A program made the position numbers and the translations under genes. Source: a virus. Taken from it: a DNA stretch of 26,800 nucleotides. Under the pieces are notes generated by a model that was given only the letters and a program-made list of their open reading frames with translations, was not told the DNA's origin and made no database searches. This document shows, piece after piece, positions 582 to 25,390 of this stretch. The stretch's first letter is position 1. The number at the start of each line of letters is the position of its first letter. Where the stretch lies: positions 1 to 26,800 of IMG/VR virus record IMGVR_UViG_3300042880_000544; one strand, 5' to 3'.

Positions 582-1046
582 ATGAGTTCAGAAGTTCTCC
601 TCGTTCAGGGAACGTCGATCCAGATTTCGACGTCCGAATGCACCGATGTCAACGTCGATCCGTTGCCCGTGATGGCGACGCTTGATTGCATCGCTCGCGA
701 GATCACCGTCACCGGCGGCACCGCCACTGAGAATGACGTGACCACGTTGTGCAGCACCGCCAAAGAGTTCCGCATGGGACTGAGCGATGCCGGCACGATG
801 TCTGTCACGGGCCACTGGAAGATCGGCAACGCCGCCCACGAAGCGATCCGAGAGGCCGCTGAAGACAAGCTGCGCCGCCTGATCATCGTGACCTTCGAAG
901 ATCTGAGCACCTGGAAGTGCCTGGCCTTCGTGTCGCAGCGTTCCTGGGCGGCTGCGGTCGATGGCATCGTCACCGCGACGTACTCCTTCCGCCTGACCGG
1001 TGAGCCGGTTGAGGCCCCCGCCCCTGTCGTTCCGCCGGCGCCGTAA
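582..1046 (+). CDS. Major tail tube protein
   Basis: This 154-residue protein would polymerise into the hollow tube of the long flexible tail. The assignment rests on position and on sequence. It precedes the two-frame tail chaperone gene and the tape measure gene, the usual order in siphoviruses, and its size is usual for tube proteins. The sequence has the tube-protein style: N-terminal LLVQGTSIQIS, a middle REITVTGG, then SVTGHWKIGN, FVSQRSWAAAVDG and a C-terminal YSFRLTGEPVE strand with a Pro-rich tail. The start is ATG at 582 with AAAGGA about ten bases upstream. A clearly related domain recurs at 13807-14451: LxQGTS, ITVTGG, WKIGN.AHDA and VSQR.WNAAVDG are shared. No extra Ig-like domain is present at the C-terminus. 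Confidence 0.75.
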   Translation: MSSEVLLVQGTSIQISTSECTDVNVDPLPVMATLDCIAREITVTGGTATENDVTTLCSTAKEFRMGLSDAGTMSVTGHWKIGNAAHEAIREAAEDKLRRLIIVTFEDLSTWKCLAFVSQRSWAAAVDGIVTATYSFRLTGEPVEAPAPVVPPAP

Positions 1047-4800: not shown

Positions 4801-5560
4801 CAACGCGCTGAACGCGCACAACGCCTACTACACCCGGCTGGCTGAACTTCAGGGCAATTGGTTGAACGGCGCGAACCAGGCGTTCGCCAACTACATGGAC
4901 AGCACGCGCAACGTCGCCGAGCAGACGCAACGCCTCTTCACCAGCACCTTGGGTGGGCTGGAAAATGTGCTGACCGACTTCTTCTCGAAAGGCAAGGCCG
5001 ACTGGAAATCGTTTGGCAATGCCATCGTCGCGGAGATCGTCCGCATCATCGTGCGCACGCGGATCATGTCGCAGATCACCCCGATCATTCAGGGTCAAGC
5101 AAACGGCTCCGGATGGTTCGGAACCTTCCTGAATTCGCTGATCGGCGGCGCCGTGAGAGGGGCTCCTGGTATCGGGGCTACACCCTCTGGCACTCCGATG
5201 ACCGGTAGTTTTCCGATGGCCCCCAACATCGTCGCGGCCAACGGTGCGGTCGTCGGTGCATCCGGAGCGGTCGACACCTTCGCCAACGGCGGTCTGGTCA
5301 CCGACCCGACCTTCTTCGGTCACGGCGGTGGGATGGGCCTGATGGGCGAGGCGGGTTACGAGGCAATCATGCCCGTCGCGCGCACCGCATCGGGCGAACT
5401 TGGTGTCAAAATGGCGGGTGGATCAAACACTCGCGGCGGTGACACGGTTGTGATCAATCTGAATGGTTTCCGCGGCGACAGCAACGAACTGCGGCTCAGT
5501 GGCGCCCAGATCGCATCGCGTGTAACCAGCGAGCTTGGGCGTGCTAGGAGAGTGATGTGA
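1862..5560 (+). CDS. Tail tape measure protein
   Basis: At 1232 residues this is the longest protein here, the usual position and size for the rod that sets tail length and is later ejected towards the host membrane. The N-terminal 350 residues are Ala/Glu/Arg-rich coiled coil with four copies of a 73-residue repeat. Residues about 357-440 contain a conserved stretch (MLPAQITDVVVSLVSGQ, then PAYLVALQQGGQIKDMFGG) known from the prophage tape measure family. A hydrophobic Ala/Gly/Ile segment (AAVAFTGLAAAIGLVGAAW) follows and could enter membranes. The middle is again coiled coil (about 540-980). A lambda-type C-terminal region with LENVLTDFFSKGKADWKSFG lies near residues 1025-1070. At the commonly used 1.5 angstrom per residue, the tail would be roughly 180 nm long. 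The start at 1862 has AGGGCGGG just upstream. Confidence 0.92.
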   Translation: MADEQARATLSVAVDAEGAKAGAAEVERALKGIDDAATKAASSTGQALDAIASGAAQAGGAMTGAQQPAKGLEESLKGLTAEAQRYARTVQRQAEQLTRSKADYAELKAARLGVTETLAPYIERMREEERGAQMAAVAEREYAESLKEAERSRRAGDALVNALRREAEQAGLDAIAIKELQAAYAGRSEEVAPYIAKLRAQEQAAKEAAIAQRQLDEATRRSETEKSQGTAFLANLRSMADQAGKTKVELLQLEAAQRGLSKEAAPDIARYAAQVQAAEQAAAAQRALNEAKREEARVQAEGTAFIERLRREEQQATMTRVEILKLDAARLGVADSAAPMIQRLEELDRAHGKAGMSARQHAMAMRMLPAQITDVVVSLVSGQPAYLVALQQGGQIKDMFGGIGPAARAMIGAITPAAVAFTGLAAAIGLVGAAWYQGAAENDAYVRSLAQTGNYIGVTTGQLHDMARAIGETTGTGQGKAAEAIAALAQSGNIAAGSMKAVGEAIVLSSTIGGRAVQELVREYEELGKKPVEASLKLNEQYKYLTVEIYNQITALEEQGRTAEAAEVAQKAYADAQKQRNLNLYNDLGTIERAWISIKNAAAGAWSEMRNIGRPVTATDTLKAAEDRLAKVKADLAAAESGPRRGTATSDLGPLARWFATPSAAALQKAESDVAAARLAAIGQIDAAATKAAENERAQLALTAEQRRRTSLDSGAPRSAKRAQELEKSERDFAAIRANANAVYINDERRRQAELKKIGEEEARDRRQIEERYKDQAGPRARQPAAYREDAGTKMLDDLQRQQAVLDAQLRTEEKLGPAARARASFEQMIADLKEKKQLTADQKAILAVEAKLRLEHNILVAKEESIALIKEEAKAEEKAEKERQKARDKRLEDLNKWDQRWAQIQDQMASAQQGRNEGYDRTLDTFGKGDRAREIQQAQETIYKEYARYENELRKSTPKDMLGSDQYKDRVRGIQTELNNALNAHNAYYTRLAELQGNWLNGANQAFANYMDSTRNVAEQTQRLFTSTLGGLENVLTDFFSKGKADWKSFGNAIVAEIVRIIVRTRIMSQITPIIQGQANGSGWFGTFLNSLIGGAVRGAPGIGATPSGTPMTGSFPMAPNIVAANGAVVGASGAVDTFANGGLVTDPTFFGHGGGMGLMGEAGYEAIMPVARTASGELGVKMAGGSNTRGGDTVVINLNGFRGDSNELRLSGAQIASRVTSELGRARRVM
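2147..2905 (+). repeat. Four copies of a 73-residue (219-base) repeat inside the tape measure gene
   Basis: The repeat is seen at protein level. The prolines of the motif AP[YDM]I fall at residues 120, 193, 266 and 339 of the tape measure protein, spaced exactly 73 each time. Around them recur E[LI]xxLxAAxxG before the AP, and an EQAAxxAAxAxRxLxEA-type stretch after it. The copies are diverged in sequence but not in length, so the period itself seems to be maintained. The last copy is incomplete and runs into the conserved family segment. Confidence 0.8.
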
Positions 5561-6207
5561 GCTTCGTTGAGGCGCTGTTCCCAGACTGCCTTTCCTTCGG
5601 CTCGGTCGGCGGCCCAGGGTACGCGACAGACATCGTCGAATTGTCCAGCGGGCACGAGCAGCGCAACCAGCGATGGTCGCGCGAGCGGCACCGCTACGAC
5701 CTGTCAATGACGGTTCGCAACCAGCAAGAGCGCGACGAGATCACCGCGTTCTTTCGGCGCATGAAGGGCCGCACCTACGGCTGGCGGATCAAGGACTGGG
5801 CTGACCACTCCGGGACGGGCGAGTACATCGCGACGGTGACGGCCGGAGATCCTGGGTTCTACTACCTGCGCAAGGCGTACACAGTCGGCGCGGAGACAGA
5901 GTTCCGATGGATCTCAAAGCCGCGCGCGGGCGTGGTTCTTACGGCGAACGGCGCGCCAATGGCCCCAACGGCATATGCAGTCGATCTGACCACTGGTCGG
6001 GTCGATATCGTCGGCGCAATCGCCCTGGGAACCATTCTGCGGGCCACGTTCGAATTCGACGTGCCGGTTCGCTTTGACACAGACACCTTGCGCTGGGACG
6101 TGGTCGATAAGTCCGGGGGCGAGTATTTGTACAAACCCGACAACCTGCCGGTCGTCGAGCTGATGGTGACTGCGCCAGTCCTGCCTAGCCCGCCCCCGGA
6201 GACTTGA
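5557..6207 (+). CDS. Distal tail protein, DUF2460 family
   Basis: This 216-residue protein should form the ring joining the tube to the tip. The family signature is visible: N-terminal FVEALFPDCLSFGSVGGPGY with IVELSSGHEQRNQRW, then RYDLSMTVRNQQERDEITAFFRRMKGRTYGWRIKDWADHS. This covers about residues 4-88 and is characteristic of DUF2460 (TIGR02217) proteins; the C-terminal part is beta-rich and ends Pro-rich. In the Rhodobacter capsulatus gene transfer agent the DUF2460 protein is followed by a DUF2163 hub, an NlpC/P60 peptidase and a very large tip protein, and exactly that order follows here. The start is GTG at 5557, overlapping the tape measure stop as GTGA, which implies coupled translation. 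Confidence 0.9.
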   Translation: MSFVEALFPDCLSFGSVGGPGYATDIVELSSGHEQRNQRWSRERHRYDLSMTVRNQQERDEITAFFRRMKGRTYGWRIKDWADHSGTGEYIATVTAGDPGFYYLRKAYTVGAETEFRWISKPRAGVVLTANGAPMAPTAYAVDLTTGRVDIVGAIALGTILRATFEFDVPVRFDTDTLRWDVVDKSGGEYLYKPDNLPVVELMVTAPVLPSPPPET

Positions 6208-10500: not shown

Positions 10501-10966
10501 GCTCTACAAGCCGGTGACCAGCTCTCAGCCGATCGCCGACGCGCAGGCACAGACGTTCACGACCAAGGGGATGACGCTGCGCCCCGTCTCGCCGGTCTTC
10601 ATCGAGTCCGAGGACATTGGTGGCGATCTGAGCATCACCTGGACGCGCCGCACGCGCGTGGGCGGTTCCTGGGCCGACTACATCGATGTGCCGCTGTCGG
10701 AAACAAGCGAAGCGTATGAAATTGACATCTGGGATGCGGGTTTTACGACTCGCAAGCGCGTTCTGACGTCCAGTACCACTGTGGTCACCTATACTTCTGC
10801 GGATATCACTACTGACTTCGGCTCAATGCCGGCGCAGTTCGGTGTGCGTGTCTACCAGATGTCGGACAAGGTTGGTCGGGGCTGTCCCGGAAAGGCTGTT
10901 CTGCCAGGCGGAATGACGATTCCTGAAGAACCGGACAATTCATCAATGGCACAACCGCCGTCCTGA
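7541..10966 (+). CDS. Large tail tip / host-specificity protein (megatron-type, phage tail 3 domain)
   Basis: This 1141-residue protein should form the central tip below the hub and probably carries host-recognition parts. It begins with a hydrophobic Ala/Gly-rich segment (residues 1-50) and a conserved block (VQGQGYGAPIWEGWGTIRGAGQLIWSGD broken over residues 65-92). Residues about 220-560 form an inserted Tyr/Asp/Gly-rich beta region. Around residues 575-660 comes a hub-like domain of the phage-tail 3 type (DIVSEIMTRSGL, then RGYMRGRTMSARAALEPL). The C-terminal 120 residues look like a fibronectin III-type module (WADYIDVPLSETSEAYEIDI). Gene transfer agent homologues of similar size often carry a glycoside-hydrolase-like barrel near the N-terminus; I do not see one. 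The ATG overlaps the peptidase stop. Confidence 0.85.
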   Translation: MAVLAVAVGGAMLASGAASVAGIAATATFAGMTAVQWGFMAGSMVGNMLFTDNPNGPRIEDKKVQGQGYGAPIWEGWGTIRGAGQLIWSGDLIEHENHHGKGKRGGNTYSYSVDCAVAICEGEINDVLRIWANGILIYDANGTTTFDTEVISGTGLTVYKGTEDQPPSAMIEGYLGAGVVPAYRGTAYVTFEGLLLEKFGNRVPSFEFEVANGALTTSSITARSLRAKNVNDGSGYFCRIHDGWLIGSTTNNLYRYDFDGVLVNTYTLPHAANKKIITDAVALEGGSISYAWTYGDGGYLTWIDLFNDNVKSISRPEFGNVTDLIMSNAQGAFCRFLNGTDYCVYTAYVDINNQYPTLGPKVYNMGNVNKVFIDHLGMAYGTKDNGTGASFFWRSSGPSIFDRTIISSADVNAGGILDVAVDPATNYIILPVFNASQAENSGVYLFDFNIVRTGFIRMDPVINKGLRLFTDGVDWYVACTEIGNTSRPIVVQFNASRMEVVRTYNFDTSDPPATWGFSPQCLEPRTNGLYMTSTLSDPSGVLGTDGYISGKMSLNFWTPGSGVIGAPADLSDIVSEIMTRSGLNGSVDFDVSALAGNVVRGYMRGRTMSARAALEPLQAAWYFDMPEIDWQLKAVVRGGASEISIPQDDLLVTDGSYGPTIDLTRQQDLDLPKQITVSFKDIAANYEAGTQDARREATSATGKASIELPIVFNASEAKQRALATLSMIWMARDQVKLSVSTKYLRLNPASPITVEMQDGSDRRIVIKSMTAGKQTIEIDALFDDVANYYQDDAEGADRETLPPPDPIASVSPSGLILLDVPLLQDSDDVATPVQYWASYPIAPTERWSGSVLFKSADGGINYANLATTTAKPTWGYAKSVMAAFYGGDIFDEETVIDVELSYGTLAPASQLSVLNGSNLAVIGKEVFQFKNATLVSGTTWRLSGLLRGRRNSEYAIFTHGILEKFLLLTGVGVGEFTVPLSDVNNARLYKPVTSSQPIADAQAQTFTTKGMTLRPVSPVFIESEDIGGDLSITWTRRTRVGGSWADYIDVPLSETSEAYEIDIWDAGFTTRKRVLTSSTTVVTYTSADITTDFGSMPAQFGVRVYQMSDKVGRGCPGKAVLPGGMTIPEEPDNSSMAQPPS

Positions 10967-10973
10967 GGACAAC

Positions 10974-11708
10974 ATGGCAACAACGACCAATCTTCAGATC
11001 ACGCTGATCGAGCAGTCGCAGTCCCAGAAAGAGGTGACTGCGAACGAGGCGTTCATCGTCATCGACAAAGCGATCGCAGGGCGCCTCGCGCTGACCTCGA
11101 CTGGTGGCACAACGACCCTGACGGATGCGCAGGCCGCCAACGCGGTGCTGGACGTCACAGGCGCGCTCACCAGCGACGCCACCGTGGTCGTGCCGGCCCG
11201 CAGCCACATCTTCACGGTCAGGAACGACACCAGCGGGGCGCAGGCGCTCACGGTGAAGACCGCAAGCGGCACTGGCATCACCGTGCCCGCCGGGGCCGTG
11301 CAGACGCTCTATTGCGACGGCGCGAACGTCTACATGGTCGGTGCCGCGGCAGCGCCTCCTGTTACGACCGCGCCCTATGACATCGGCATGTTCTTCCCGG
11401 GCAAGCCTGCGGACGGCGCGCTGCTGTTCCGAGTGCCTCTGGCGCGGGAAGTGACCTTCGCTGACAACTTCGCTGGGAGCCAGGCAAAGAGCCTGACCGC
11501 ATCCAGCGTGACTGCCGTGTTCAACGTGCAACGCAACGGCACAACGATCGGGACGATCACCTTCTCCGCGTCTGCGGTCGGGGTGTTCGCAACCACTGGC
11601 ACGGCAAGCGAGGTGTTCGCTGCCGGCGACATCCTGTCGGTCATCGCACCGACTCCGCAAGACGTGACCCTTGCGAACATCGGCATCACTTTTTCGGGGA
11701 CTCGATAA
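10974..11708 (+). CDS. Tail fibre-like protein with DUF2793-like N-terminus
   Basis: The N-terminal segment of this 244-residue protein (LIEQSQSQKEVTANEAFIVID, residues about 11-31, split by the family consensus Q.QKEVT.NEA) resembles DUF2793. That domain attaches fibre or appendage proteins in several phages. Residues 45-130 are Thr/Ala/Val-rich beta sequence, and the C-terminal part (YDIGMFFPGKPADGALLFRV, about 143-162, then AGDILSVIAPTPQD) resembles common C-terminal domains of phage fibre proteins. A role as a fibre or receptor-binding part at the tip is inferred from position after the large tip protein. The ATG follows TGAGGACAAC. The stop TAA overlaps the next start as TAATG. Confidence 0.7.
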   Translation: MATTTNLQITLIEQSQSQKEVTANEAFIVIDKAIAGRLALTSTGGTTTLTDAQAANAVLDVTGALTSDATVVVPARSHIFTVRNDTSGAQALTVKTASGTGITVPAGAVQTLYCDGANVYMVGAAAAPPVTTAPYDIGMFFPGKPADGALLFRVPLAREVTFADNFAGSQAKSLTASSVTAVFNVQRNGTTIGTITFSASAVGVFATTGTASEVFAAGDILSVIAPTPQDVTLANIGITFSGTR

Positions 11709-12763
11709 TGGCTCTTCTCTGGTTTGATGGTTTCGAGGCGGGCGCCGCCAACTTCTCAATCGCCTCGACGAAATACGAGTCGACGATCGGCTGGGGTGGC
11801 GCGGCCAACCTGGCGTCCAACTCCTACCCGGCGCGCTCCGGCTCCGGCATCCTGCGCTACTTCAACGGGCAGGCCGGCGCCCTGAGCAAGACGGTGACGG
11901 TCTCCGGCGCGGCGATCATGGGTGCGGGCGTGTTCAAGGCGACCGGCGCATGGTCGAACTCTCCGCGGCTGTTCCAGATGCGCGAGTTCTCCACGATCCA
12001 CCTGACCCTGGTGATCGACCCGACGCTCTACCTGAAGCTCTACCTGGGCGACTTTGGTGGCACCCTGCTGGCGACGTCCAGCGCGCCTATCACAGAGAAC
12101 GCCGCGTACCAGTTCATCGAGATGAAGGCGACGGTGGCGGCGACCACTGGCAACGTCGTGGTGAGAATCGACGACACCGAGGTCATCAACTTCACCGGCA
12201 CGACCACGATGGGCGGGTCGAGCATCGTGAACCGCGCCGTGCTGGGGCCGACCGCCGCCTTCGCCAGTACCGGTGCAGGCGACCTGCGGATCGATGACTT
12301 CTACGTCGCCGATACCAGCGGCACCGTCTGCAACAACTTCATCGGCTCGGGGTTTGCCGTGCGGCTGCTGACGGTCGATGGCGCGGGCGACAGTACCGCC
12401 TGGACGCCTTCTGCCGGGGCGAACTGGCAGTGCGTGGACGAGGTGCCTCCTGATTCGCTGGACTTTGTCTCCACGCTCACCAGTGGCGCGCGCGACCTGT
12501 ACAACCTCGCGGCCAGGCCCGCCGGGACTTATGACGTCCTGGGCGTGCAGACGGTCGTGACGGCGAAGAAGGACGACGTCGGAGCGCGGCTGATCCGCAG
12601 CGTGCTGAAGTCCGGGAGCACTGTGCTTGTGGAGCCGACCGATCAGGCACTGACCACGGACTACAAGTCCTACTGCTACACGCTGACGAAAGACCCGGCG
12701 ACGGATGCGTCATGGCTGCCGGCGGCCCTGGACGGTCTTCAGATCGGGCAGGAGATGGTCTGA
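11708..12763 (+). CDS. Tip-associated beta-sandwich protein, first of two tandem paralogues
   Basis: This 351-residue protein opens with LLWFDGFEAGA and continues with alternating beta strands. Segments such as YQFIEMKATVAATTGNVVVRIDDTEV (split around residues 135-160) and LRIDDFYVADTSGTVCNNF (about 196-214) look like the laminin-G/concanavalin-type sandwich seen in phage appendage proteins. The C-terminal part holds WTPSAGANWQCVDE and a YNLAARPAGTYDVLGVQTVVTAKKDD strand region. The next gene encodes a diverged copy. A role in carbohydrate or surface binding is inference from fold style and location. I cannot name a family. Both ends overlap neighbours (TAATG and TGATG), so the fibre genes appear to be translated as a coupled block. 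Confidence 0.65.
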   Translation: MALLWFDGFEAGAANFSIASTKYESTIGWGGAANLASNSYPARSGSGILRYFNGQAGALSKTVTVSGAAIMGAGVFKATGAWSNSPRLFQMREFSTIHLTLVIDPTLYLKLYLGDFGGTLLATSSAPITENAAYQFIEMKATVAATTGNVVVRIDDTEVINFTGTTTMGGSSIVNRAVLGPTAAFASTGAGDLRIDDFYVADTSGTVCNNFIGSGFAVRLLTVDGAGDSTAWTPSAGANWQCVDEVPPDSLDFVSTLTSGARDLYNLAARPAGTYDVLGVQTVVTAKKDDVGARLIRSVLKSGSTVLVEPTDQALTTDYKSYCYTLTKDPATDASWLPAALDGLQIGQEMV

Positions 12764-13800
12764 TGGCGATGCTCTTCGTCGAGGGCTTTGACCATGTCGG
12801 CCCGTCCTATCTGCCGGCGAAGGGCTGGACATGGACGGTCGCGCCATCGGTTTCGACTTCCCTTGGGCGCACCAAGCCCGGCGGCGCGCTGAACCCGTGG
12901 CAGCAAAATCATGCCGCCTCCAAAGTGGTCCCGGGCTCGCCGAGCACAATCGTTCTTGGATTCGCTGTCGCCGTCTATGGCTCGACTGTCAATGCGAACA
13001 GGTCGGTGGTGCGATTCATGGAGGGGGCGACAACGCATGTCTCTGTCGGCTGGGACATGCACAAGAACCTGTGCATCTGGCAGGGCGACATGACGACGCT
13101 GCTGGCGAACACCGAGTATGTGTTCAAGGTAGGCGGCAGCCCGGTGGACTACCACTACGTCGAGATCGAACTCACCGTCAGTGACACCGCTGGCGTGCTG
13201 AAGGTCTGGATCGACGAGGCTCCGCGCGTCAACCTGTCTGGCATTGATACTCGAAATGGCGGCGCGGGCGTCATCGACAAGTTGAACCTCGGGCTTACAT
13301 CACCCGCGGGGCTGGATGTTCTGATCGATGACCTGTACTGCCTGGACAAGACCGGCACGGTGAACAACGCGCGCTTGGGCGACTGCTCGGTGCATACGCT
13401 CTTTCCGGTCGCTGACCTGACGGCTAACTGGACGCCTTCGACGGGCACCGTGCGCTGGTCGCTGTTGGATGAGCAGCAGGTGAACACCAACACCGACTAC
13501 ATCTCAGCAGGCGGTTCGGCGCAGGAACTGTTCACTGTGAAGGCCCATCCGACGGCCCGCGCGATCAACGTCCACACGATCCAGACCTCCGCAATCGCGA
13601 TGCGAGATGACGCCGCTGCACGGGATATGAAGGTGCTGGTGCGGCCGGTGTCGACGATCTACAAGGGGCCGGCCCTTGCTACGACATCCAACTACTCGAC
13701 GCCGGTCAGCACGCTGATGATGGAGACCAACCCGGAGACGGGCCTCAAGTGGACCAAAGCCGAGTACAACGCCACCGCGTTCGGCGTCGAGCACGTCTGA
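12763..13800 (+). CDS. Tip-associated beta-sandwich protein, second paralogue
   Basis: This 345-residue protein starts at ATG 12763, which overlaps the previous stop as TGATG; an in-frame ATG at 12712 lies inside the upstream gene and is rejected. It aligns with its neighbour along its whole length. MLFVEGFDHVG matches LLWFDGFEAG, VLIDDLYCLDKTGTVNNARL matches LRIDDFYVADTSGTVCNNF, NWTPSTGTVRWSLLDE matches AWTPSAGANWQCVDE, and NVHTIQTSAIAMRDDAAARDMKVLVRP matches VLGVQTVVTAKKDDVGARLIRSVLK. The pair must come from an old duplication, since identity is modest. An appendage or receptor-binding role is inferred. It ends six bases before the fused tail tube paralogue. Confidence 0.65.
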   Translation: MAMLFVEGFDHVGPSYLPAKGWTWTVAPSVSTSLGRTKPGGALNPWQQNHAASKVVPGSPSTIVLGFAVAVYGSTVNANRSVVRFMEGATTHVSVGWDMHKNLCIWQGDMTTLLANTEYVFKVGGSPVDYHYVEIELTVSDTAGVLKVWIDEAPRVNLSGIDTRNGGAGVIDKLNLGLTSPAGLDVLIDDLYCLDKTGTVNNARLGDCSVHTLFPVADLTANWTPSTGTVRWSLLDEQQVNTNTDYISAGGSAQELFTVKAHPTARAINVHTIQTSAIAMRDDAAARDMKVLVRPVSTIYKGPALATTSNYSTPVSTLMMETNPETGLKWTKAEYNATAFGVEHV

Positions 13801-13806
13801 CCTGCA

Positions 13807-14451
13807 ATGGCGATCCGCGTCTCCCAGCTTGCTGTCGAGGTTCTCTCGACTGTCGTCTCGAACCCCGCCGCGTCGGTTTCGCAGGTGGCAGCCGAGATCG
13901 CAAGCGTGCGTCCTGCGCCGACGTATGCGATCGTCGACCAGGCTGCGGTGGAGATCGCTCTCAACATGGGGCAGGAGCCCCCTCCGCCTCCCACGCCTGT
14001 CGGCCCTGATCCACTGCTCGCTCAAGGCACGAGCGTCCAGATGTCGATCGACGAATGCACCGACGTCATGGCCCCGTTCCCCCCGATGGTGCTGATGGAC
14101 TGCACGACCAAGTCCATCACGGTGACCGGCGGAATGAGTGCAGAGATCCGCACCTCGACGATGTGCAGCGTCGCCAGCGAGTACAGGATCGGCAAGACCG
14201 ATCACGGCACGCTCACCGTCGAAGGGTTCTGGAAGATCGGCAACACTGCGCACGACGCGGTCGCAGTGGCCGCCAAGGACCGCAAGCGGCGTCTGCTGTT
14301 GGTGACCTTCCGCGACGGGTCAAAGTGGCGGTGCGTGGCAATGGTCTCTCAGCGCACCTGGAATGCCGCCGTCGACGGGGTCGTCGGTTCCACCTGCACG
14401 TTCAAGCTCACCGGGCCAGCCATCGAAGTGCTGCCACCGGTTGTGATCTGA
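13807..14451 (+). CDS. Second tail tube domain fused to an N-terminal VSQxAVEV segment
   Basis: The 214 residues fall into two parts. Residues 1-65 (MAIRVSQLAVEVLSTVVSNP, then ASVSQVAAEIASV and AIVDQAAVEIA) are the same repeat type as the next gene. After a Pro hinge (PPPPPTPVGPD, about 60-70), residues about 73-210 are a tail tube domain closely related to the protein at 582-1046. LLAQGTSVQMSIDECTDV matches LLVQGTSIQISTSECTDV, KSITVTGG matches REITVTGG, FWKIGNTAHDA matches HWKIGNAAHEA, and VSQRTWNAAVDGVVGSTCTFKLTG matches VSQRSWAAAVDGIVTATYSFRLTG. About half the positions are identical by eye. A tube domain at the far end of the fibre block is out of place. It could line or cap the tip, decorate the tube, or serve as an alternative tube subunit. 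Confidence 0.75.
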   Translation: MAIRVSQLAVEVLSTVVSNPAASVSQVAAEIASVRPAPTYAIVDQAAVEIALNMGQEPPPPPTPVGPDPLLAQGTSVQMSIDECTDVMAPFPPMVLMDCTTKSITVTGGMSAEIRTSTMCSVASEYRIGKTDHGTLTVEGFWKIGNTAHDAVAVAAKDRKRRLLLVTFRDGSKWRCVAMVSQRTWNAAVDGVVGSTCTFKLTGPAIEVLPPVVI

Positions 14452-14458
14452 GGGACTC

Positions 14459-14821
14459 ATGGCGATCCGCGTATCCCAAATTGCAGTCGAGGTCATCTCG
14501 ACTGTCATCTCCAACCCGGCCGCGGTCGTGTCCCAGGTCGCGGTCGAATTCGCGTACCTGCCGGTCATCCCGCCGACGAAGGCGATCGTCGACCAGGCTG
14601 CCATCGAGTTCGCCTCCGTCACCACGCCAAAGGCAGTGGTCGACCAGGCTGCCGCTGAGGTCGCCTCCGTCACGACTCCTCGCGCAGTCGTCGACCAGGC
14701 TGCTGTCGAGGTCGCCACCGCCAACCTGCCGCCCGCGCGTGTCGATGCAGTCGCGCTTGAGGTTGCCGTCGCCGCCCCGGTCGCAGTCTCATCGCAGCCG
14801 ATCGTCTTCATCTCCACCTGA
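14459..14821 (+). CDS. Small VDQAAVEV repeat protein
   Basis: The N-terminus of this 120-residue protein (MAIRVSQIAVEVISTVISNP, then VVSQVAVEFA) nearly repeats that of the preceding gene. The rest is three 17-residue units AxVDQAAxEVASVTTPx plus a degenerate fourth (ARVDAVALEVAVAAPV). Each unit alternates hydrophobic residues as in a beta strand followed by a Thr-Pro turn, so an extended or beta-solenoid shape is plausible. Similar RVxQxxVEVL repeats occur in other phage tail regions, to my recollection, without an established function. The ATG follows GAGGGACTC, a good ribosome binding site. Location suggests a virion or tip component; that is inference. Confidence 0.65.
   Translation: MAIRVSQIAVEVISTVISNPAAVVSQVAVEFAYLPVIPPTKAIVDQAAIEFASVTTPKAVVDQAAAEVASVTTPRAVVDQAAVEVATANLPPARVDAVALEVAVAAPVAVSSQPIVFIST
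14582..14734 (+). repeat. Three 51-base direct repeats
   Basis: Units begin at 14582, 14633 and 14684. The core GTCGACCAGGCTGC recurs at the same place in each (first unit GTCGACCAGGCTGCC, third GTCGACCAGGCTGCT), and the first two also share CGCCTCCGTCAC. The same core also appears in the preceding gene near 13934, which encodes AIVDQAAVEIA. The repeats keep the reading frame (17 codons per unit), and the near-identity of the first two suggests fairly recent expansion. Confidence 0.8.
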
Positions 14822-24786: not shown

Positions 24787-25218
24787 TCAGGACTCGGCGG
24801 CGGCGCGCAGGGCGTGAACGGCCTCGCGGTAGTTGGCGGGATCGATCTCACGGGCGTTCTTGACACCCAGACCGGCCAGCGCGCCCAGCGCGGCGTCGCG
24901 ACCCTTGTCCCGCACGATCGTCATCACCAGTGCGGAGATGTCGGCCTGCGTCGGTTCGGGATCCTCGATATCCGCGAATGCCTCCGCTGTCGGCTCGGGC
25001 TGCGGCTCAGGCTGCGGCTCAGGCTGCGGCTCAGGCTGCGGCTCGGCGACGGGCTCTTCAACGACCGGGGGCGCCGCCTGGACGGCGGGCTCTTCGGCCT
25101 GCTTGGTGCGCTTGGCGCGCGGGGCAGGGGTCTCTTTGGCGGACAGGCCGATGGTCGCGAGCATTCCGGTCAGCGCGTTGATGGCGCAGGTCAACTCTTC
25201 AAGCTTCTGTTCAAGCAT
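24787..25218 (-). CDS. Hypothetical protein with Pro/Glu hinge
   Basis: These 143 residues run from ATG 25218, directly preceded by AGGAGAAACC, a strong ribosome binding site. The N-terminal 25 residues are a helix (MLEQKLEELTCAINALTGML). A Pro/Glu/Ala-rich linker with PEPQPEPQPEPQPEP follows, and the C-terminal 50 residues form a compact helical domain (DISALVMTIVRDKGRDAALGALAGLGVK, split around 90-120; then NYREAVHALRAA). The C-terminal domain type (KGRDAALxxLxxxGxxx) is one I have seen in phage recombination regions, without a firm function. It heads the replication cassette together with DUF2800. The linker is encoded by a 12-base DNA repeat. Confidence 0.65.
   Translation of the reverse strand: MLEQKLEELTCAINALTGMLATIGLSAKETPAPRAKRTKQAEEPAVQAAPPVVEEPVAEPQPEPQPEPQPEPQPEPTAEAFADIEDPEPTQADISALVMTIVRDKGRDAALGALAGLGVKNAREIDPANYREAVHALRAAAES
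24992..25044 (-). repeat. 12-base tandem repeat coding for PEPQ units
   Basis: On the + strand the unit is GGCTCAGGCTGC. Copies start at 24992 (one variant base), 25004, 25016 and 25028, followed by a partial copy. It encodes the repeated Pro-Glu-Pro-Gln linker in the gene at 24787-25218. The near-perfect copies indicate recent slippage; length can change by four residues at a time without breaking the frame. Confidence 0.85.
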
Positions 25219-25237
25219 GGTTTCTCCTGGGGGTTGG

Positions 25238-25390
25238 TCAGAGTGCGCCTGTGGCGATCGCCACAGACGCATAGAGCGCGCCGATGGCCGCTCCGATGAG
25301 GGCTGCGATCAGCATGTCGCGGATCGGTGTGGACTTCTTGTAGGGGCGCGGCAGGGGCTGCGGTGCGCGGATGATCGAGGTCGGTGGCAT
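25238..25390 (-). CDS. Small membrane protein, first gene of the leftward operon
   Basis: These 50 residues run from ATG 25390. A Pro-rich basic N-terminus (MPPTSIIRAPQPLPRPYKKS) is followed by one membrane span (MLIAALIGAAIGALYASVAI, about residues 26-45). There is no clear ribosome binding site, and the start lies about 32 bases after the -10 box of the leftward promoter. Confidence is limited by its size, but the span is distinct and the gene fills the space between the promoter and the next gene. No family is recognised. Confidence 0.45.
   Translation of the reverse strand: MPPTSIIRAPQPLPRPYKKSTPIRDMLIAALIGAAIGALYASVAIATGAL

Follow-up and report, generated by a model that had tools for sequence, protein, structure and literature searches.

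The phage considered here is known from metagenome data alone and is represented by a 26.8-kb IMG/VR virus record; this whole stretch of 26,800 nucleotides is referred to below as the window. The genes of the window are ordered as in a siphophage whose tail tip is GTA-like. An ordinary lambda-type tail tube protein of 154 aa, named TTP1 here, is encoded on the plus strand at 582-1046, and it matches Pfam family PF16460 above the cut-off (E 1e-8) and PHROG 158, 'major tail protein' (E 5e-27). The tail chaperone and tape measure genes lie directly downstream, and the tail order as a whole runs from TTP1 through the chaperone, the tape measure (TMP_2), a DUF2460 protein, the baseplate hub, an NlpC/P60 protein and a large hub protein with an Rcc01698-like C-terminus to the fibre block. 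The DUF2460 protein (5557-6207, plus strand; PF09343, E 5.9e-48) is the distal tail protein of the GTA type, a role known from RcGTA-type tails, and shows that the slot at the lower end of the tube is filled. The fibre block contains, in order, fibA (10974), B1 (11708), B2 (12763), TTP2 (13807) and REP (14459).

TTP2, the subject of this analysis, is a second tube protein whose N-terminus is extended by a repeat segment; it has 214 aa and is encoded on the plus strand at 13807-14451. Its position is atypical of the family, being 13 kb off and within the fibre block rather than before the chaperone and tape measure genes. A sequence-only reading of the window had placed an ordinary tube gene in the expected position and a second tube domain far away after the fibre genes, and both are borne out by exact open reading frames. 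The two proteins are 54% identical over 138 residues (BLASTP, E 1e-56), which is far above chance. The sequence blocks that the same reading listed as shared are present, two of them in slightly different form in TTP1 (WKIGNAAHEA and VSQRSWAAAVDG).

Some neighbouring genes are of interest in their own right. B1 (11708-12763) and B2 (12763-13800, directly upstream of TTP2), both on the plus strand, are tandem PHROG 2448 paralogues, 28% identical, with one match place in a related phage (L090); the start of B2 at 12763 is favoured on its Shine-Dalgarno sequence. Between the tube and tape measure genes, two overlapping open reading frames (1050-1852), the first a match to PHROG 313, are a candidate for the frameshift-made tail chaperone pair that is usual in siphophages.

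The N-terminal extension of TTP2 was described beforehand as about 65 residues with a proline hinge, and about 66 residues are found. Residues 1-56 (13807-13974, plus strand) hold three RVSQ/VSQ/VDQ repeats, recognised by their likeness to the N-terminus of REP, and residues 57-69 (13975-14013, plus strand) form a Pro-rich hinge. The tube domain follows at residues 70-212 (14014-14442, plus strand), as delimited by an AlphaFold2 model and structure comparison. The model, built with 28 sequences, is mostly at pLDDT above 80 except in the beta2-beta3 loop, and it has the tube fold, a bent beta-sandwich flanked by a helix with a long beta2-beta3 loop. The best structural matches of this predicted model are lambda-type and related tail tube proteins, including lambda gpV (Z 13.5-15), and the AlphaFold2 model of TTP1 has the same secondary structure. 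Modelled singly, the C-terminal domain is predicted to fold as the tail tube protein that it had been proposed to be. Outside the N-loop and the beta2-beta3 loop, the sandwich part of TTP2 is 55% identical to TTP1. Profile scores are lower for TTP2, which reaches E 3.3e-14 with PHROG 158 and 19.6 bits with Pfam against a cut-off of 28.4, TTP1 scoring 35.5 bits. The repeats are modelled as low-confidence helices in the absence of related sequences, and this part of the AlphaFold2 model is not reliable.

The repeat segment belongs to a family that is found well beyond this locus. The next gene, REP (14459-14821, plus strand), encodes a stand-alone repeat protein of 120 aa of the same family, and its N-terminus is 73% identical to that of TTP2 (residues 1-52) over 53 aligned positions; the 5' DNA of the two genes is also visibly related. 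REP matches the PHROG 13560 profile with E 1.7e-4, and the N-terminus of TTP2 alone with 0.26. RVSQ-type repeats are common. In L097 and L103 they make up small proteins, and other phages have them joined to virion proteins: in L099 they precede a PHROG 837 minor tail protein, and in L108 they are embedded in one of PHROG 553. At L102:2973-4559, a discoidin-like (F5/8 type C) domain is followed by about six such repeats and then by a PHROG 394 tail protein domain. Searching phage genomes with tblastn gave no match for REP, probably owing to the low-complexity filter, four weak chance-level matches for the TTP2 N-terminus, and two weak matches for L103; the repeats in phage genomes are better recovered by a DNA pattern scan. 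In L090, which belongs to the same record as L059, the hub, fibA and fibB genes stand in the same order and are followed immediately by a stand-alone 68-aa protein made of three RxTQ/RVTA repeats, in the place equivalent to that of TTP2.

With regard to origin, TTP2 most likely derives from the tube gene of its own lineage and not from a distant phage, since a maximum-likelihood tree computed from 30 tube proteins groups TTP1 and TTP2 in a single clade with the tube protein of the relative L008 (support 100/98). Gain from another phage lineage is disfavoured by the same support. The end branch of TTP2 (0.70) is the longest of the clade and about nine times longer than that of TTP1 (0.077). On the question of whether the duplication came before or after the split from L008, a topology that pairs TTP1 directly with TTP2 is not rejected (p 0.448). 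Because L090 has a stand-alone three-repeat gene at the place of TTP2, it is the tube domain that seems to have been added. The simplest history would begin with a three-repeat gene at this site, followed by duplication of the block and gain of a tube domain by one of the repeat genes; within this phage lineage, a copy of the tube gene would thus have been joined on after a fibre-operon gene with three repeats.

The arrangement appears to be narrowly distributed. Screening of 76 phage records, 10 other viral records and a further 18, three bacterial genomes among them, revealed no second tube copy, any additional matches in the last group being at chance level; many of the viral records searched are fragments. 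Among 399 Burkholderiales genomes there were three tube matches, one in each, none with the repeat part. Genome contigs searched with P0001 alone gave no match, and searched with the TTP alignment they gave three prophage-like loci with one strong match each. TTP2 itself is limited to three near-identical contigs. The search for the same fusion in related phages, which the sequence-only reading had suggested, found none among the records examined, and no tube-domain fusion of PHROG 13560-type repeats was seen elsewhere.

The tube domain of TTP2 departs from its relatives at residues that are otherwise fixed. It breaks nine of the 36 positions invariant in 13 close relatives, while each of the other sequences breaks at most three of its own invariant set. 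Five of the broken positions lie in the beta2-beta3 loop (residues 108-134; 14128-14208, plus strand) and two in the N-terminal stretch, and the hinge residues P67 and P69 stand where the 13 relatives have an invariant S and V. In lambda-type tubes, the beta2-beta3 loop and the N-loop make the ring-to-ring contacts (PMC8718954). The corresponding loop of TTP1 (residues 46-70; 717-791, plus strand), taken as the gap between strands 38-45 and 71-78 of its AlphaFold2 model, is a normal inter-ring element. Two changes in the TTP2 loop, D115R and L130K, stand out, as the other tube proteins compared have D and L (once I). Relatives seeded by motif might inflate the conservation of STAKEFR, and it was therefore checked with seven phage proteins collected independently of the motif (HK97, KS9, Bcep176 and four more), in which the D115 and L130 positions hold and T122 and K124 are not fully conserved. 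In lambda, D61A/D62A in the same loop halts growth at the ring interface (PMC8718954), a comparison that applies by loop and not residue by residue. A concentration of broken residues in inter-ring elements was considered and dropped, as the enrichment is not significant (7/19 against 2/16 elsewhere, Fisher p 0.14; loop alone, p 0.45). General acceleration could therefore explain the broken residues, and the argument is limited to how many positions are broken and to the two substitutions peculiar to TTP2. The evidence that the inter-ring contacts of TTP2 are altered is suggestive only.

The reading that we favour, to which we give about an even chance, is that TTP2 belongs to the virion as a minor subunit and, through a modified tube domain, tethers the repeats to the tail. 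This domain would act as a plug into the tail, lodged within or upon a ring, and the N-terminus would carry the RVSQ repeat module outwards on the proline hinge. TTP2 keeps the beta-sandwich of hexameric rings and should thus be able to sit in or on one, and the altered inter-ring loop and N-loop suggest that few copies would be used, or a single position occupied, and that it would not serve as a bulk subunit. Its Shine-Dalgarno sequence is among the weakest of the tail genes (-2.2 kcal/mol, against -5.6 for TTP1) and its start lies 6 bases past the upstream stop, both of which suit a minor, coupled product. The fusion of such repeats to different virion proteins in L102, L099 and L108 is counted in favour of a virion role. 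More specifically, the altered contacts may let TTP2 enter or end an ordinary ring once, so that a mixed or special ring displays the repeats of the fibre operon; this version is offered tentatively. The roles first imagined for the protein, a special ring, a decorating subunit or an alternative subunit, are all still conceivable, with the alternative, equivalent subunit made less likely by the unique D115R and L130K changes in the inter-ring loop and the weak Shine-Dalgarno sequence.

TTP2 might instead form a dedicated homohexameric ring that caps or adapts the end of the tube, its altered loop stopping further stacking and its repeats binding the fibre block. Its changed inter-ring residues beside a retained ring-forming domain, and the location of its gene in the fibre block, would suit such a role, and there is a parallel in lambda, where the distal tail protein gpM has topologically the same fold as gpV (PMC10721106). 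However, the usual tube-end proteins are both present: the DUF2460 protein is in the window, and L007, a near-identical contig, adds the head genes and encodes a portal, a head completion protein, an HK97-gp10-like protein and a Tail_completion_gp17 terminator. The presence of both the DUF2460 protein and the terminator speaks against TTP2 as a replacement for a missing tube-end protein, a reading that was rejected, and the relatives manage with a single tube gene and no TTP2. We consider a dedicated end ring unlikely.

The repeats could also be the anchor, binding hub or fibre proteins, with the tube domain an exapted passenger (for example, a binding surface) that is not in the tube at all. 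The repeat gene that ends the fibre operon of a relative does so with no tube domain there, the adjacent TTP2 and REP are alike at the N-terminus, as is the case for proteins that use the same anchor, and the inter-ring residues of TTP2 are changed. However, a sandwich that is 55% identical to that of TTP1 is closer than a mere passenger requires, and the likelihood of this explanation is accordingly judged to be rather low.

A further view takes TTP2 to be a duplicate of recent date that is under weak constraint, does little or nothing, and is heading for loss. The sequence-only reading had called the domain well conserved and so unlikely to be decaying, a statement in need of correction. The long branch and the nine broken invariant residues do not fit a well conserved domain, and together with the narrow distribution they would suit a gene on its way out. 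Branch omega, computed from the branches of TTP1, TTP2 and L008, is 0.52 for TTP2 (95% interval 0.29-1.03), compared with 0.29 for TTP1 and 0.32 for L008, and the upper limit of this interval again agrees with decay; 3% of the TTP2 bootstraps are at or above 1. Against decay, omega is below 1 in 97% of bootstraps and the frame is full-length, with no stops. GC by codon position is 0.61/0.51/0.82, like that of the neighbours, with a genome-typical GC3 of 0.82-0.84. TTP2 is also unchanged in two other IMG/VR contigs of the same virus, which is weakly informative as these differ by 21 and 53 positions overall. From the intact frame and an omega below 1, purifying selection probably acts on TTP2, more loosely or for a new role, and loss in progress is improbable. 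By far the least probable role is that of a decoy, or a modulator, acting inside the cell on defence that recognises the tail tube protein. DSR2, an example of such a system, is reported to be triggered by that protein, but the late structural gene position and the fusion to a virion-type repeat speak against this role.

Most siphophage tails are depicted as being built from a single, stacked tube protein. Within the reach of the search, the statement that no system of this kind had been described is valid for the exact fusion, and no paper describing a TTP2-type arrangement was found, short of a full literature search; it does not extend to paralogous or extended tube proteins, which are known. 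In Microbacterium phage Camille (L120, cluster EL; 10906-14404), gp17, gp19 and gp20 are all annotated as major tail protein and are mutual paralogues, 42-48% identical over their N-terminal 220-250 residues or so, with C-terminal parts that differ in length. Camille thus resembles the present phage in having paralogous tube proteins within one siphophage genome. However, its three genes lie as a group before the tape measure gene and diverge at their C-terminal ends, with no N-terminal repeat fusion and no placement in the fibre block, whereas the two genes here stand at 582 and 13807. The Camille-related phage Damascus has two major tail proteins, with features common to several phage clusters, according to its genome announcement (PMC11080557).

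The tube of SPP1 combines plain gp17.1 with an extended form at 3:1, and the outward appended domain is dispensable for infection (PMC8718954). A plain and an extended form are encoded by both phages; in SPP1 they come from one gene by ribosomal frameshift and the extension is a C-terminal FN3 domain, whereas here a separate paralogous gene carries an N-terminal one. Lambda gpV shares the tube fold (predicted for TTP2) and an appended outer domain, but is the sole tube subunit and has a C-terminal Ig-like extension. Hcp paralogues of the T6SS can mix in one ring (PMC13323088), and these heterohexamers and Hcp-ET (9vne) offer likeness as tube-fold paralogues and as a tube subunit with an extra domain; they differ in forming a secretion tube with cargo in the lumen and no phage tail surface module. 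On the repeat side, the nearest known kin are the RVSQ/RVTQ proteins of PHROG 13560, through the REP match, the tail protein repeats of L099, L102 and L108, and the stand-alone protein of L103. Jumbo phage CBB, JBD30 and pelagiphage Skadi were also considered as comparisons and proved irrelevant.

Several tube paralogues per phage being already known, what is new here is the N-terminal repeat fusion, the fibre-block placement and the altered inter-ring residues. The pair represents a natural experiment in which one lineage has an old tube subunit and a new one that differs in its ring-to-ring contacts and bears an additional N-terminal module. It allows testing of ring mixing, of the specificity of the beta2-beta3 loop, and of the role of the widespread RVSQ repeats. 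If TTP2 is in the tail, tails would gain surface functions through tube gene copying and fusion, and if it serves there as a plug, siphophage tail decoration would have arisen by paralogue fusion instead of frameshift.

Additional repeat-bearing proteins were observed around the locus. Upstream of the window, at L007:4336-7014 and before the head-tail connector genes, an 892-aa protein consists mostly of repeats of about 28 residues (AATETGKDVAAFNG type) and has no Pfam or PHROG match; a shorter open reading frame at L008:286-1611 has the same repeats in the same place. At L007:1426-2445, a collagen-repeat protein (PF01391, E 3e-16) overlaps the end of the portal gene, and on the minus strand of the window, at 24787-25272, a protein contains a PQPEPQPEP run.
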